Below, one piece after another: positions 2,901 through 21,059 of a stretch of DNA of 28,441 nt (position 1 is its first letter; each line of letters begins with the position of its first letter). The DNA is taken from positions 1-28,441 of IMG/VR virus record IMGVR_UViG_3300025122_000108; one strand, given 5' to 3'. The position numbers and the translations under genes are program-made. The notes beneath the pieces were generated by a model. The model had not been told where the DNA came from. It saw nothing but the letters and a program-made list of their open reading frames with translations, and searched no databases. This DNA is from a virus.

Positions 2901-2926
2901 CTTTAGGAGAGATAAATGGCTGAGAC
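2893..2926 (+). repeat. Leader repeat, copy 1 (before sheath 2)
   Basis: The 18 bases at 2893-2910 (GATAGAATCTTTAGGAGA) match 16 of 18 bases at 5983-6000 in front of the tail tube gene. Both are followed, after 5 or 8 bases, by the identical start ATGGCTGAGAC. The repeat contains the ribosome binding site, so it may be a shared high-expression leader for the two most abundant tail proteins, or a trace of duplication. Confidence 0.6.
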
Positions 2927-5900
2927 AGTTTTTAACAGTGCCGGTGTTACAGCAACTGAAATCGATCTTTCAGCACCTACAGTTGCAGGTCCTGTTGGGA
3001 CTCCAGCGGGTGTAGTGGGAACTGCTAATCAGGGCCCAGCATTCGTTCCTGTAACCGTAGCTAACTATAGAAATTTTTCTCGCATATTTGGAAACACAGA
3101 TGGTGAAAAGTTTGGACCTCTTGCTGTTAGTCAATTTTTAAAGAACGCGCAGGCTTTAACTTATATTAGAGTTCTTGGTGTCGGAGATGCAAAGAAGAGA
3201 AATACTAGCACTGGAAAGGTAAACAGGGCTGGATTTGTTGTGGGATCACAGCAGATAGATGATAGAGGTACAGTTGCAAGAAATCCTTACGCAACTAGCC
3301 CATATAGTGATCTGGGAAGAACATACTTTCTAGGATGCTTCCTATCTGACTCAGCTGGGTCTTCATTGCTTAAAGACGCAGGAATATCAGGAGATACTAA
3401 ATTAGGCGGAACAGGATCTCACCCGATTATACGAGGTGTTCTCATGGCTCCGTCTGGTGTCATACTGGGGCTGTCTGGAACAAGTAATGGAAGCAATGTA
3501 GTTGGAACAGGTGCTGTAACAGCATCTGCAACAAATGGTCAAACTAGCACAGGGTTCGCATACGGCGGAGCTATGACAGGAACACTAAATCTTGCCACTC
3601 AGAACTTTGTCATGCTTCTAAATGGGCACAAGGCCACCGGTGAGGGTCCAAATATAATCACAGCATCATTTGACCTAGAGTCTCCAGCTTACTTTGGAAA
3701 TGTGCTAAACACAGATCCTCTCGAGATGGAAAAGAAGGGACACCTTCTTTATGCAAGATACGATATCCACCCAGCATTCGTAAAGGCAACTGGATCAGGA
3801 GTAATTAAAAATGACTGGTACTCACATGCAGCTCAAGGAACGCAGGAAGATATCGCATTCCTGCTAACAAGCTCGTTAGCTAGAAATACAGGAAATGCAT
3901 CAGTTCCAGACTATGATTCATTCCAAGATAGATTTAAGGCTCCAAGATCACCCGCAGTTATATCGCAGGATTTTGCTGGAACGAAGCACAGTCTGTTCAG
4001 GGTGTTCTCTATATCAGATGGATCATTTACCAACGACCTCTTTAAGATTTCAATTGAAAATATTAAGCCTTCTCTGGTAGACTCCTATGAATATGGAACG
4101 TTTGATCTCATTGTTAGATCATTTGATGACACTGATGAGGAGAAGAGACCCCTAGAGTCTTACAGAGGATTGTCCCTTGATCCTTCTAGTGATAAGTTTA
4201 TAGCAAGAGTCATTGGAGATCAAAATACATACTTTGACTTCGATCAGGCCACAGCGTCACAGAAGATAGTTGTACAGGGTAATCATCCAGTTATATCAAA
4301 CTATATTAGAATAGAGCAAAGTGATCAGCTGAAGGCAGGAGAGCTTCCGAAGTCATCACTTCCGATGGGCTTTAGAGGTCTCGATCACCTTGTAACATCT
4401 GGAAGCAATATTCTATGTACAGTTAGTCAGTCCCAGATTAACCAAAGATATCAAGGCAATGAGTCTTATTCATACCTAAGAGCTGTCACACCACCTGTTC
4501 AGTTTAGAGAAAGTGTAGCAATAGGAACAGCTCCCAATAAAAATACAAACTCATCACTTTACTGGGGATGTCAATTTTCTAGAAAGGTTTCAGTTTCAAA
4601 GACCAATCTTTCTTCAGTTCAAGACAATACATGGAGATCTAGAGTAAAATACTTCCCAGATTTCGCACTATCTAATAGAAACTTTTCTGTTGGAAACAAT
4701 GCTGGCGTCGCAGATTCAAATGGAACAGTTTTAGACTGTGATAGATTTAATAATAATATTTTCTCACTAGAAAGAATTCAGGTTAGAACCGGTTCTGATA
4801 CCATTGCAGATGTTAATGAGTGGGTTAGCGCATCTTATGTGAGAAACGGATCTATTACAGCAAATACGGGAAACAAGACTAGGGCATTAAAGGTCTCGGA
4901 TCTAAAGACGCAAGGAAATAGAAGGTTTTCAAAGTTCACATTTGTTCTTCAAGGTGGCTTTGATGGAACTGATATGTTCAACCAGGATAGAATGGATCTT
5001 TCAAATGCAGCTGCTAAGAGAGAGATGGATGATGAGACAAATCAGGGCGGCACAAATGGACCCACAGTAGCAGCATATAGAAAAGCTGTTGACATGATGG
5101 GAACTAAATCTGATGTTGACATAAACCTTCTTGTGATTCCTGGAATTAGACAGGCAGCTGTTACAAATTATGCAATAGATGCTATTGAGAATAGATTTGA
5201 TGCGCTCTATATCATGGATATTGAGGAAAGAGATGAAATCAATACAGTAATAACGTCATCCGTCTCTAATCCAAGTGTAGCTTACACAGTAGCAGCCTTT
5301 AAGAATAGAGGGTTAAATTCATCCTTTGCATCAGCTTATTTCCCAGATGTCATTATGACAGATCCTACGACAAATACAAATGTTCAAGCTCCTCCTTCAG
5401 TTGCTGTTCTTGGTGCCTTTGCTATCAATGACGCTGTTGGATATCCGTGGTTCGCACCTGCTGGATTTACAAGAGGAGCTCTAAAGGATTCGCTATATTC
5501 AAAGGTGCCTGTCAGCAAGGCAAACATGGACACGCTTTATGATGCAGATATAAACCCAATCACTGCATTCCCAGGAACTGGATTAATGGTATTTGGTCAA
5601 AAGACACTTCTTGCAACAGACTCTTCTCTAGACAGGGTTAATGTTAGAAGGCTTCTCATAAATGTGAGAAGATCTGTCAGACGTGTTGCAAACACCATGT
5701 TATTTGAGCCAAATAGGCAGGAGACTCTTGATAGGTTTAATGCTCTTGTTACACCCATTTTACAGAGTGTACAGGAGAGAAGTGGTGTTGATAGATACAA
5801 GGTTGTAATCGATGCAACAACAACAACGCAGGCTGATATTGAGAATAACACCCTAAGGGGCAAGATATTCTTACAGCCTACACGTACAGCAGAATTTATA

Positions 5901-5951
5901 GCACTTGACTTTGTTGTAACAAATGCAGGAGATGCATTCCAAAATGCATAG
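2916..5951 (+). CDS. Tail sheath protein 2
   Basis: This is a second, full-length contractile tail sheath protein of 1011 residues. The start is fixed by an AGGAGA ribosome binding site at 2905-2910, five bases before the ATG. The N-terminus (MAETVFNSAGVTATEIDLS) has the typical look of a sheath N-terminal arm. The conserved sheath core is at the C-terminus: IPGIRQAAVTNYAID (about residue 740), YPWFAPAGFTRG (about 843), FGQKTLL and LDRVNVRRLL, ending in ALDFVVTNAGDAF. The middle 200-700 region is long, Ser/Thr/Gly-rich and less alike between the two copies, as expected for surface-exposed insertions. The tube gene follows 57 bases later, the usual sheath-tube order. It may form a mixed sheath with protein 1 or be used at a different position in the tail; the sequence does not decide this. 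Confidence 0.95.
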   Translation: MAETVFNSAGVTATEIDLSAPTVAGPVGTPAGVVGTANQGPAFVPVTVANYRNFSRIFGNTDGEKFGPLAVSQFLKNAQALTYIRVLGVGDAKKRNTSTGKVNRAGFVVGSQQIDDRGTVARNPYATSPYSDLGRTYFLGCFLSDSAGSSLLKDAGISGDTKLGGTGSHPIIRGVLMAPSGVILGLSGTSNGSNVVGTGAVTASATNGQTSTGFAYGGAMTGTLNLATQNFVMLLNGHKATGEGPNIITASFDLESPAYFGNVLNTDPLEMEKKGHLLYARYDIHPAFVKATGSGVIKNDWYSHAAQGTQEDIAFLLTSSLARNTGNASVPDYDSFQDRFKAPRSPAVISQDFAGTKHSLFRVFSISDGSFTNDLFKISIENIKPSLVDSYEYGTFDLIVRSFDDTDEEKRPLESYRGLSLDPSSDKFIARVIGDQNTYFDFDQATASQKIVVQGNHPVISNYIRIEQSDQLKAGELPKSSLPMGFRGLDHLVTSGSNILCTVSQSQINQRYQGNESYSYLRAVTPPVQFRESVAIGTAPNKNTNSSLYWGCQFSRKVSVSKTNLSSVQDNTWRSRVKYFPDFALSNRNFSVGNNAGVADSNGTVLDCDRFNNNIFSLERIQVRTGSDTIADVNEWVSASYVRNGSITANTGNKTRALKVSDLKTQGNRRFSKFTFVLQGGFDGTDMFNQDRMDLSNAAAKREMDDETNQGGTNGPTVAAYRKAVDMMGTKSDVDINLLVIPGIRQAAVTNYAIDAIENRFDALYIMDIEERDEINTVITSSVSNPSVAYTVAAFKNRGLNSSFASAYFPDVIMTDPTTNTNVQAPPSVAVLGAFAINDAVGYPWFAPAGFTRGALKDSLYSKVPVSKANMDTLYDADINPITAFPGTGLMVFGQKTLLATDSSLDRVNVRRLLINVRRSVRRVANTMLFEPNRQETLDRFNALVTPILQSVQERSGVDRYKVVIDATTTTQADIENNTLRGKIFLQPTRTAEFIALDFVVTNAGDAFQNA

Positions 5952-5982: not shown

Positions 5983-6019
5983 GATAAACTCTTTAGGAGA
6001 TAGAAGAAATGGCTGAGAC
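5983..6019 (+). repeat. Leader repeat, copy 2 (before tail tube)
   Basis: GATAAACTCTTTAGGAGA at 5983-6000 repeats the leader seen at 2893-2910 with two differences, and leads into the same first eleven coding bases. It holds the AGGAGA ribosome binding site (5995-6000) of the tube gene. Confidence 0.6.
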
Positions 6020-6500
6020 GTTATCCGTCACCGATATGTTACCTAATAAATTTGAGCCCAAAAGGCAGTTTAGGTGGATTTTTGCGATAGAAGGTATTGA
6101 TGCCTTTTTGATGAAAACAACTAGTAGACCTAAATTTACACTGGCTCAAAAGGAAATTCCCTGGATAAATGCAAAGCGTTATGTATCAGGGAGGCTCACA
6201 TTTGACCCGATCGCACTCACACTGTATGATCCGATTGCACCATCAGGAGCACAACAGGTCATGGAGTGGATTAGAACGCACTATGAGTCTGTATCTGGTC
6301 GTGCTGGATACGCAGACTTCTATAAGCGTGACTGCCAGCTAAAGCTTTTAGATCCAATTGGAACAGTTGTAGAGCTTTGGGATATAAAGGGTGCATTTTT
6401 ACAGGATGCAACATTTAATAACCTTACCTATGAAAATGAATCAGACCCTGTAGAGATCGCTATCACGCTTCGGTATGATAACGCTGTTTTGCAATACTGA
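6009..6500 (+). CDS. Tail tube protein (gp19-like)
   Basis: This is the major tail tube protein, 163 residues, the same length as T4 gp19, which it resembles. Hexameric rings of it form the inner tube through which DNA passes. Visible family features are the N-terminal RQFRWIFAIEGIDAFLMKT strand, SGRLTFDPIALTLYDPI, the short helix around HYESVSGRAGYADFYKRD, and the closing beta pair LWDIKGAFLQDATFNNLTY and PVEIAITLRYDNAVLQY. The start is set by AGGAGA at 5995-6000. It lies directly after the sheath genes and just before a strong terminator, so it is the last gene of that transcription block. I am confident of the family and role. Confidence 0.93.
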   Translation: MAETLSVTDMLPNKFEPKRQFRWIFAIEGIDAFLMKTTSRPKFTLAQKEIPWINAKRYVSGRLTFDPIALTLYDPIAPSGAQQVMEWIRTHYESVSGRAGYADFYKRDCQLKLLDPIGTVVELWDIKGAFLQDATFNNLTYENESDPVEIAITLRYDNAVLQY

Positions 6501-6520: not shown

Positions 6521-6554
6521 AAAGCCCTCCTATTAAGGAGGGCTTTTTTATTTT
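6521..6554 (+). terminator. Rho-independent terminator after the tail tube gene
   Basis: AAAGCCCTCC (6521-6530) pairs perfectly with GGAGGGCTTT (6537-6546), giving a 10-bp stem with a six-base loop, followed by a T-rich tract (6544-6554). It sits 20 bases after the tail tube stop and is the only textbook terminator in the window. Confidence 0.93.
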
Positions 6555-6608: not shown

Positions 6609-7421
6609 TTGTCGGATCATCAAGGTGTTCAAACACACAATGTAATGAAAGATGACTTTGGTTGGGATGTTCCTGTAGAGGGAGTTCCGGTTCCATCTGA
6701 GGGAAAAGTGTATTCTGAGGGATCTGGGCTTCACAATAAAAATCTTCTTCACATAAGATCTATGACAGCTCGTGATGAGGATATACTTGCTTCTCGAGCC
6801 CTTATTCAGCAAGGCATAGTAATAACAACTTTGCTCGAATCTTGCTTAGTTGAAAAAGATATAGATGTTAGAGATATGCTTATCGGAGATAGAAATGCTC
6901 TGATGGTATCTGTTAGGATCACAGGATATGGGACATCGTATAATGCAGAGGTAAATTGTCCGGAATGTGGAAAAAAGAGCAGCCAGAATTTTGACCTATC
7001 AAACCTAGAGATAAAGCGTCTAACATTAGATCCAGTTAGACAAGGAGAGAATGTATTCTCATTTAAGCTTCCCGTAACTGGGAAGGAAGTTCACTTCAGA
7101 TTCCTAAGGGGGGCTGATGAGGAAGAGATGAATCTGACGGCGGAACGTCGCAGAAAGATGATGCCTGATGCAAAGATTGATAGTCTTGTCACATCCAGAC
7201 TGGAGCAATTAATTGTTTCAATTGAGGGAGTAAGTGATAGGAATAAGATAAACGCATTCGTTAAAGACATGCCAGCGCTAGACTCTAGAAAGTTAAGAAC
7301 ATTTATAGAGAATCATGAGCCCGGAATTGACATGTCTGTATGGATGAGTTGCGCTCAATGCAACCAGGAATCTCGTGTATCTCTTCCGATCGGCGCCGGG
7401 TTTTTTTGGCCCACGGACTGA
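6609..7421 (+). CDS. T4-family baseplate hub / tail assembly chaperone
   Basis: This is a member of the T4-family baseplate hub assembly chaperone group (the gp26-like T4_baseplate family), thought to help assemble the hub and tape measure. It starts with TTG at 6609 behind AGAGGA at 6599-6604. Recognisable stretches are VPVPSEGKVYSEG near residue 26, the ARDEDILASRALIQQG helix, MLIGDRNALMVSVRITGYG, and a split zinc-ribbon: CPEC at residues 117-120 and CAQC at 248-251. The protein proper ends at 270 residues, but its last codons cross seven T at 7401-7407, beyond which another frame continues with a typical chaperone extension. Position between tube and tape measure is where phages keep their frameshifted tail chaperones. 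Family call is firm; the exact function is inferred from homologues. Confidence 0.82.
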   Translation: MSDHQGVQTHNVMKDDFGWDVPVEGVPVPSEGKVYSEGSGLHNKNLLHIRSMTARDEDILASRALIQQGIVITTLLESCLVEKDIDVRDMLIGDRNALMVSVRITGYGTSYNAEVNCPECGKKSSQNFDLSNLEIKRLTLDPVRQGENVFSFKLPVTGKEVHFRFLRGADEEEMNLTAERRRKMMPDAKIDSLVTSRLEQLIVSIEGVSDRNKINAFVKDMPALDSRKLRTFIENHEPGIDMSVWMSCAQCNQESRVSLPIGAGFFWPTD

Positions 7422-7677
7422 GTGGAGAGAGTCTTTTCTAGAAGAAGCGTTTCTACTTCAATATCATCTCAATATGAGCTATTCTGATGTAAGAAACCTT
7501 CCTGTAACATACAGGCGATGGTTCATAAGTCGTCTGGGTTCTGAATTCAAGAAGAGGTCAGATGCTAGAAAGAAAAGCAGAGGCCAGCAAAGTCAGGACA
7601 CCCAGACAAGCATGCAAGATAATATGAAAGCTATCGATGAAATGATCAAGGCTTCGGGTGAAAAGAGCTTTAAGTGA
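7375..7677 (+). CDS. Chaperone extension frame (DUF6760/gp51-like), probably made by frameshift
   Basis: This frame overlaps the end of the chaperone gene. The nominal GTG at 7375 has an AGGAA at 7366-7370, so separate initiation is possible, but the part that looks like conserved protein begins after the slip site: WRESFLEEAFLLQYHLNMSYSDVRNLPVTYRRWF, followed by a basic then polar tail. That pattern (acidic helix, YH, then a short hydrophobic helix and RRW) resembles the small partner protein found after the T4-type hub chaperone in phage tails and extracellular contractile injection systems. Read through the slip, the fusion would be about 355 residues (266 + 89). It ends 36 bases before the tape measure gene, as G/GT-type chaperones do. 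The resemblance is by eye; a profile search would settle it. Confidence 0.6.
   Translation: MYLFRSAPGFFGPRTEWRESFLEEAFLLQYHLNMSYSDVRNLPVTYRRWFISRLGSEFKKRSDARKKSRGQQSQDTQTSMQDNMKAIDEMIKASGEKSFK
7398..7410 (+). promoter_or_regulatory. Putative programmed frameshift site (GGGTTTTTTTGGC)
   Basis: The chaperone frame reads GGG TTT TTT TGG and then stops at 7419. The frame that continues reads GGC from 7408. Moving between them needs a +1 slip (skipping the T at 7407) or a -2 slip on the T run; both end in the same downstream frame. The -1 frame closes quickly at 7439. A pairing of homopolymer, overlap and conserved downstream frame is typical of tail assembly chaperones. A sequencing indel in the T run is the main alternative. 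Confidence 0.6.
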
Positions 7678-19564: not shown

Positions 19565-19603
19565 ACATTATTAATATTTTGTGAGATATTTATGAATAAT
19601 GTC
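19564..19603 (+). promoter_or_regulatory. Hairpin enclosing the start of the next gene
   Basis: GACATTATT (19564-19572) pairs perfectly with AATAATGTC (19595-19603), and inside it AATAT (19573-19577) pairs with ATATT (19586-19590). The start codon ATG (19599-19601) lies in the outer stem and the only Shine-Dalgarno-like bases (GTGAG, 19581-19585) lie in the apical loop. Such a fold could hold back translation unless ribosomes from the upstream gene open it. The pairing is seen; a regulatory role is inferred. Confidence 0.45.
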
Positions 19604-21059
19604 ACGTCTCACGTCAGCAGAATTTAAAAAGCTCTATGGAACATCCATGGATAATGTTCCTGAAAAGGGTGTGTGGTCAGGCCGAGGAATTGGAATACCA
19701 GTCGCTGGAGCTATTGGCGGCGGAGATGACTACAAGCAGAAGATAGGTCGTGGAAAGCTTCCTGACTTTAGAACAGGAAGCCCAACACAGGGTGCCGACT
19801 CAACATTTTCATCATATCTTGCTAGAGTGAATACTGGGTATGATGATTATGACAAGGCAGTAGAATATATGCCTATGTTTCCTGAGCAAGAAGAGGAAGA
19901 GGGTGATATTTATTCATGGGATGTCGAACCAGTTAGAAGTAGAAAGCTTCCTAAAGACTTTAAGATAATGAGGCCTAAGCAAAAGGGGTTAAAAGAGAAG
20001 ATGGAATTTAACGAAAACTATATTGTTCCGAGAAGTAGATATAATCTAAATCATTTATTTGAACAACCAGCTCCAGAAGTATCTGATCCAGATCTAAGCT
20101 CAGTAAGAATAAAAGATGTAGTAGCAGATGTTTTGGGAGATGCCCTTCTAGCGCTAGCCGATACGGCGGGCTACGACGTACCTGGAGCATTGCTGCTCGT
20201 ACCGACTGTCGCGTATAACATGTATCAAATCAGGTCAGCTACAAACAAGGGTGAGGAGCTGCTTCAGGCGATGGCAGCCAATCCAAGCGATGATATAGCA
20301 GTAGATATGGATGATGTCATGCAGGACATCACAAGAGATCTAGTTGATGTCATGCAGAGAATAATAGAATTCTTGCCAGCATCTGTAGTATCAGTTGGCA
20401 CAGCTAATATTGGTTCGTTTATAGCTGGTCAGGCTGCCACTTATGCTGCAGGTACAGCTATAAGATCTGGATCTGAAATGTATGAAGATCTTCTTAATAA
20501 GCTACCGGATACAGTTAGAACAATTATAGAGTGGACGCCTGTATCACCAGATCCATCCGGAGTAGTTATTGGCGTGATGAAGGGGATCATATCTCAGGGA
20601 CTTTCAATGGTTGGAAAGCTTCACAAGGCGATAAACGAATATAAAGGCGCGCGAGACGCTCCGCATACACCAAGCCCAGATACACAAGAAGCCGGTCCTT
20701 CGCAGGACATGACTAAAGCTCAGGCCTATGAAATGATACTTACAGGAGATGATGTCAGTGCTGGAGCGGGTTTATCAGAACTAAAGAAGTTTATCAAAGA
20801 GTCAATTTATCCCGACTATAGCACATATCACGAGGACAAGCCCGCAGGATATAAGTCTAGAAATGTACCAACCGTAGTTACAAAACAAGAGGCTGAATCG
20901 GTTTTCGATAGGCTAGATGACTATGATGATTTTTCTGTCGCGTATAAGGCGGATGGAGGAATTGTAAATTATCAAGCTCGATCACTAGAGGAGCAGGCTC
21001 TCAGAAACCTTATTCAGCAAGGTCTGCACCGAGTGCTTGAGAGTAAAAAAAAAAATTAG
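19599..21059 (+). CDS. Unrecognised, possibly virion-associated protein, 3' end frame-shifted
   Basis: I do not recognise this gene. The main frame gives 486 residues. The N-terminal 160 residues are polar and Gly/Asp/Pro-rich, with an acidic EQEEEEGD stretch near 97. The middle holds hydrophobic segments (DVPGALLLVPTVAYNMYQI near 195-215; an Ala/Gly-rich stretch near 265-290; VVIGVMKGIISQG near 325) that could enter a membrane or pack in an assembly. Residues 385-486 have short amphipathic helices (LSELKKFIKESI, LRNLIQQGLHRVL). It stops directly after eleven A (21045-21055). Reading one base back, the frame continues with coherent protein, so the real product is probably longer, to 21278. 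It lies between replication genes but its composition resembles structural phage proteins. No enzyme motif is visible. Confidence 0.65.
   Translation: MSRLTSAEFKKLYGTSMDNVPEKGVWSGRGIGIPVAGAIGGGDDYKQKIGRGKLPDFRTGSPTQGADSTFSSYLARVNTGYDDYDKAVEYMPMFPEQEEEEGDIYSWDVEPVRSRKLPKDFKIMRPKQKGLKEKMEFNENYIVPRSRYNLNHLFEQPAPEVSDPDLSSVRIKDVVADVLGDALLALADTAGYDVPGALLLVPTVAYNMYQIRSATNKGEELLQAMAANPSDDIAVDMDDVMQDITRDLVDVMQRIIEFLPASVVSVGTANIGSFIAGQAATYAAGTAIRSGSEMYEDLLNKLPDTVRTIIEWTPVSPDPSGVVIGVMKGIISQGLSMVGKLHKAINEYKGARDAPHTPSPDTQEAGPSQDMTKAQAYEMILTGDDVSAGAGLSELKKFIKESIYPDYSTYHEDKPAGYKSRNVPTVVTKQEAESVFDRLDDYDDFSVAYKADGGIVNYQARSLEEQALRNLIQQGLHRVLESKKKN

Follow-up and report, generated by a model that had tools for sequence, protein, structure and literature searches.

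A Putative Programmed +1 Ribosomal Frameshift in the PF12322 Tail Assembly Chaperone Gene of a Marine Phage and Its Relatives

Tail genes and an overlapping ORF pair

The stretch of DNA analyzed here (the window) is the entire 28,441-base virus record IMGVR_UViG_3300025122_000108, probably a genome fragment, and all coordinates refer to that whole stretch. The tail genes are arranged in the order of two sheath-size proteins, tail tube, ORF1, ORF2, and a long ORF presumed to encode the tape measure (Table 1). The overlapping ORF pair lies directly between the tube gene and the presumed tape measure gene, an order also found in phages immuto, SP-15, and LIS04; in Flavobacterium phage immuto and Listeria phage LIS04 the gene 3' of the chaperone is annotated as tape measure. 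A sequence-only reading of this DNA had placed a T4-family hub chaperone between tube and tape measure, and this assignment is borne out by the matches of ORF1 to PF12322 (64 bits versus a curated cut-off of 24.5) and PHROG 150, with the tape measure assigned by position. ORF1 has a TTG start and encodes 270 aa with the C-terminal end ...PIGAGFFWPTD. ORF2, in the +1 frame relative to ORF1, spans an open frame of 7348-7677. The T run between them is exactly T7401-7407 and is read in frame 0 as GGG TTT TTT TGG CCC ACG GAC TGA. The -1 frame, which had been noted to close after about ten codons, is indeed closed 11 codons past the T run.

Table 1. Features of the chaperone locus and its neighbors in the window.
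Feature	Coordinates	Strand	Evidence
Tail tube protein	6009..6500	+	PHROG 4542 3.2e-24; upstream of ORF1
ORF1, T4_baseplate (PF12322) chaperone, short form (G-like)	6609..7421	+	PF12322 2.1e-17, PHROG 150 1.7e-21; AlphaFold model pLDDT 90
Open but unselected 5' part of ORF2 frame, including GTG 7375	7348..7407	+	pN/pS 1.25 in +1 frame
Putative shift site TTT_TTT_TGG_C	7401..7410	+	YTT TGG invariant in 90/90 relatives; P-site third base T in 90/90
ORF2 part predicted to be translated (T-like domain, 89 aa), reached post-shift	7408..7677	+	pN/pS 0.16 up to ATG 7474, 0.21-0.27 beyond
ATG within ORF2 (rival start)	7474..7476	+	Kept in near clade; selection begins ~65 nt 5' of ATG
Presumed tape measure protein, 902 aa	7714..10422	+	Position and length only; no family match of its own

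Several other features of the window were recorded. A strong hairpin with a T tail, resembling an intrinsic terminator, lies at 6521-6546 between the tail tube and chaperone genes and would reduce chaperone expression relative to the tube; the SP-15 record has a terminator annotated at the equivalent tube-chaperone position (L013 2367-2399). The consecutive sheath-size genes at 202-2880 and 2916-5951 (892 and 1011 aa) look related by eye, which suggests a two-protein sheath. An eleven-A run (21045-21055) at the 3' end of gene 19599-21059 may be a spot of polymerase slippage or of uncertain sequencing. No phage tRNA was found in the window.

The family search with ORF2 gave nothing above the cut-off; the only sub-threshold match was DUF6760 (PF20546), at E 0.053 for the window and at best 0.0057 among 18 members, still short of the cut-off. 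An eCIS link via DUF6760 was dropped since the match is sub-threshold only. By sequence, ORF1 had no credible match among solved structures. The ORF1 and ORF2 parts were folded separately; the ORF2 part gave a helical model (pLDDT 84). For the ORF1 model, the best structural matches among 862 chains were YqbN (3klu, Z 5.9) and the HK97 tail assembly chaperone (2ob9, Z 5.6), both covering ORF1 residues 4-111 with an rmsd of 7-8 and Z below 8; we take 3klu (YqbN) to be an XkdN-like tail chaperone. Foldseek with the ORF1 model returned no significant match (E not significant). Position and the putative frameshift point to a tail assembly chaperone, and the structural matches, modest in Z, may do so as well.

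Frame relation and selection among relatives

A wider scan for relatives added 80 loci, and 96 distinct sequences were compared. Located by profile, ORF2 has the +1 frame in 95 of the 96 relatives and the -1 frame in one, at identities down to 25%. The nearest relatives (85-86% protein identity, from independent metagenome assemblies) keep the seven T and the frame, and those at 52-67% identity keep TTT TTT TGG CC together with the +1 relation. Among the +1 relatives are cultured phages of Flavobacterium, Microcystis, Bacillus (SP-15), Listeria (LIS04), Streptococcus (GXN1), and Streptomyces (BRock), and a scan of genome contigs yielded one further relative, L145, which is +1 with TTT TTT CGT. 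It had been suggested to check whether relatives keep the T run and the frame: the frame is kept, and the run is 7-8 T long in most relatives but only 3-4 T long in 10 of 66 representatives (TTT CTT TGG, TTC TTT TGG). Homopolymers are error-prone, and the T run might reflect a sequencing or assembly error; the chance of this is negligible, and a wrong base count is ruled out by the recurrence of the run and frame in independent assemblies at all divergences, by the +1 relation in 95 of 96 relatives, by a nearby frame-0 stop in every relative, and by the onset of +1-frame selection at the T run (see below).

Some individual records deserve mention. In IMGVR_UViG_3300025109_000059 a short deletion shifts the frame after ...RRWFI and truncates ORF2, which is intact in the other near relatives; this could be an assembly error or a real variant. 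The record of Microcystis phage Mel-JY01 annotates ORF2 as a separate gene starting within ORF1 (L011 3195-3431), probably a missed +1 frameshift. The long product is absent from the annotated records examined.

We computed pN/pS over five divergent pairs. Upstream of the T run, pN/pS is 0.23 in frame 0 and 1.25 in the +1 frame; from the T run to ATG 7474 it is 0.16 in the +1 frame, 2.81 in frame 0, and 1.78 in the -1 frame. The +1 frame is therefore under protein selection from the T run, 5' of any conserved start, which argues that it is translated from the run onward. An alternative is that ORF2 encodes an independent protein initiated within ORF1 without a frameshift, either at GTG 7375, which is preceded by AGGA at five nt in the window, or at ATG 7474, whose equivalent is kept in the near clade; in one sub-clade an ATG overlaps the ORF1 stop. 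However, the +1 frame is unselected between the GTG and the T run and selected between the T run and the ATG, the GTG is missing from all but the nearest relatives, and the ATG is absent beyond the clade. No ORF2-frame start codon is conserved among the relatives, and 34 of 90 lack any start up to 45 nt past the site. A separate start would also leave the invariant YTT TGG unexplained. The lack of conserved start codons, combined with selection from the T run, is a strong argument against independent initiation of ORF2, which we consider improbable. The refuting case named beforehand, homologues whose second frame lacks a slippery run and begins at a conserved start of its own, was not seen within this group: no start is conserved.

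The shift site and its surroundings

The site in 90 relatives reads TTY [T/C]TT TGG CC, with TGG TC as the one exception. TGG is preceded by TTT in 79 and by CTT in 11 of them. Neither TTC nor any other Leu codon occurs at this position, whereas in the rest of these genes TTC accounts for 31% of Phe codons and CTT for about 28% of Leu codons. The joint probability of this TTT/CTT bias is ~2e-9 with 44 representatives at 60% identity and 9e-4 with 16 at 50%. The codon preceding the shift codon can be TTC, as in the TTC_TTT_TGG of 5 of the 90 relatives. In GXN1 and BRock the sites are TTC_TTT_CGT and CTG_TTT_CGC, respectively, with three T each and the same frame relation. The seven-T run, proposed earlier as the slippery element, is exact in the window but not essential: the 3-4-T runs in some relatives indicate that the element is instead YUU_U, which is invariant before GG (90/90).

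Two other mechanisms would place the shift on the T run itself. Slippage of RNA polymerase would produce mRNAs with an inserted or deleted base, and most relatives have a homopolymer of 7-8 T. Seven T is short for polymerase slippage, and the 3-4 T of the 10 representatives and the three T of GXN1 and BRock make this mechanism very improbable. A -2 ribosomal slip, adding one extra Phe, fits the TTT TTT TGG of the window and most relatives, and the phage Mu tail chaperone uses -2 (PMC5009743). Since TTC_TTT_TGG, TTC_TTT_CGT, and CTG_TTT_CGC offer no cognate -2 re-pairing at the same frame relation, +1 is favored over -2. Of the +1 or -2 difference suggested from the sequence alone, +1 is the more probable direction of the slip, and a -2 slip appears quite improbable.

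Sequence comparison brings out a conserved +1 relation, selection that changes frame at the site, and an invariant YTT_TGG. We conclude that a programmed +1 ribosomal frameshift very probably generates two tail assembly chaperones from this one gene; frame conservation, selection, and codon choice support the frameshift-extended tail chaperone that had been proposed. The slippage itself and its efficiency we infer as follows. Most ribosomes would read ...G-F-F-W-P-T-D and then stop, giving a short protein similar to lambda gpG. In a minority, with P-site tRNA-Phe on TTT 7404-7406 and the A-site TGG unfilled, the ribosome would slip to TTT 7405-7407, take GGC 7408-7410 as the next codon, and continue in ORF2 to yield a fusion of ~355 residues similar to lambda gpGT. 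Across the relatives, the P-site tRNA-Phe or tRNA-Leu would move forward by one base and pair again with UUU. If the two products act as their lambda counterparts do, the short one would cover the tape measure and the long one would bring in tube subunits; both may take part in loading these subunits on the tape measure. TGG after the shift codon is a sense codon with no obvious stall. For LIS04 (TTT TTT AGT), slipping would have to take place on the first TTT; the LR756508 site (TTT CTA) fits the shift scheme less clearly.

No stimulator was identified for the window: its own clade has neither a Shine-Dalgarno (SD)-like element nor a significant hairpin, no downstream RNA structure is predicted in the window (z 0.32), and the upstream RNA in the window is not unusually structured (p 0.64). 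Among the 90 relatives, 60 have an SD match of at least 6 bases within 45 nt upstream, compared with 15 when synonymous codons are resampled; in a control stretch, 1 match stands against 1.4 expected. An upstream hairpin beats the synonymous controls in SD-bearing relatives (mean z -3.8 for near-SD and about -2 for far-SD), and in relatives without an SD-like match it does not exceed them (z -0.5). Most often 18-19 or 23-25 nt separate the SD from the shift codon; the intervening fold would often leave 4-9 nt. Covariation of the hairpin in the relatives is not clearly above column shuffles, so the case for the hairpin rests on the synonymous resampling. The hairpin is likely to be real in the relatives and may play a stimulating role: in 63 of 90 relatives the SD-like sequence with the intervening hairpin upstream probably stimulates the shift. 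As an internal-initiation signal, the SD and hairpin were rejected, there being no conserved ORF2-frame start at a suitable distance. Hairpin-shortened SD spacing is known at the initiation of some T4 genes; we know of no case of an SD and hairpin composite acting as a frameshift stimulator.

Relatives with a -1 frame, T4 gp26/gp51, and known systems

In ten RaK2-type jumbo phages (L017, L018, L137-L144) and in LR756511, ORF2 is in the -1 frame. By hhalign (95%), this ORF2 and its counterpart in the +1 group are homologues, and an in-frame U_UUU_UUC is present at the equivalent Phe-Phe codons in 11/11 of the -1-frame relatives. Several records of RaK2-type jumbo phages annotate a small gene after the hub chaperone, and this gene probably belongs to an overlooked -1 frameshift product made at U_UUU_UUC. 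T4 gp26 and gp51 both match PF12322. ORF1 residue 266, the second Phe of the site, corresponds to profile column 218 of 219 in PF12322; past that column gp26 (208 aa) ends ~three residues on, and gp51 (249 aa) runs 49 more. The gp51 tails of six T4-type phages show a weak, in-register likeness to ORF2 that is above 300/300 column shuffles in two comparisons. The end of gp26 and the extension of gp51 at the site column, together with the likeness of the gp51 tail to ORF2, are suggestive of gp26 and gp51 being the short and long forms encoded as two genes.

A joint reading, which we put forward tentatively and at somewhat less than even chances, is that PF12322 is the frameshifted chaperone of the T4 lineage, with an ancient Phe-Phe site used for +1 or -1 shifts, a gene duplication in T4, and stimulation by the SD and hairpin in many members. 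Within that reading, the +1 sites would be YUU_UGG and UUU_CGN in the marine and other phages, and the -1 site U_UUU_UUC in the RaK2-type phages. The family appears to use +1 and -1 at the same codons. Frameshifting in PF12322 hub chaperones suggests roles for the T4 assembly proteins gp26 and gp51, for which we propose a two-gene replacement. It would also contribute a large natural collection of +1 sites resembling that of release factor 2 (RF2) but with a sense A-site codon, and what may be a new kind of upstream stimulator.

Tail chaperones made by -1, -2, and +1 shifts are well known (PMC5009743), and 350 forward frameshift cases from actinobacteriophage annotations have served as positives (PMC10885494). 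G/GT-type frameshifting was reviewed as widely conserved in long-tailed phages, T4 excepted (PMC5009743). No description of PF12322 frameshifting was found in the literature searched, which excludes most subscription journals. With tail chaperone frameshifts, including +1, already known, the PF12322 form with YUU_UGG would be a variant. T4 gp26/gp51 also belong to PF12322, and gp51 has an ORF2-like C-terminal extension, but they are separate genes without a frameshift. A precedent for the two-gene reading of T4 is gp143/gp144 of Bacillus phage 0305phi8-36, a proposed short/long chaperone pair from two genes without a frameshift (PMC2147016). In HF1-group haloviruses a +1 shift with TTT-CGC was proposed for the tail chaperone pair (PMC7230728). 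These viruses and HSTV-2 are also myoviruses with a +1-requiring chaperone pair between tube and tape measure, but their hosts are archaeal; the first chaperone of HSTV-2, tried as a PF12322 member, gave no match. At influenza PA-X UCC_UUU_CGU, tRNA-Phe slips from UUU to UUC (PMC3498833), the same slip that would occur in GXN1, BRock, and L145, although in a eukaryotic virus and an unrelated gene.

At the RF2 (prfB) +1 site the shift takes place on CUU_U or, less often, on UUU_U (PMC5009743). The tetranucleotide CUU_U/UUU_U is common to both systems, but UGG_C with a sense A-site codon (Trp) replaces UGA_C of the RF2 site CUU_UGA_C. In RF2 the SD and the shift codon are 3 nt apart; the window has no SD, and in the relatives the SD-like matches lie mostly 18-25 nt away with a hairpin between. 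By its sequence, the chaperone site is RF2-like at the shift codon and is not an RF2-type cassette. The lambda gpG/gpGT and P2 gpE/E' genes likewise form an overlapping pair before the tape measure gene with a minor extended product, and by analogy with them neither part would be expected in the virion. Lambda and P2 use a programmed -1 shift, whereas the locus described here would use a +1 shift in PF12322 proteins at a YUU_UGG site.
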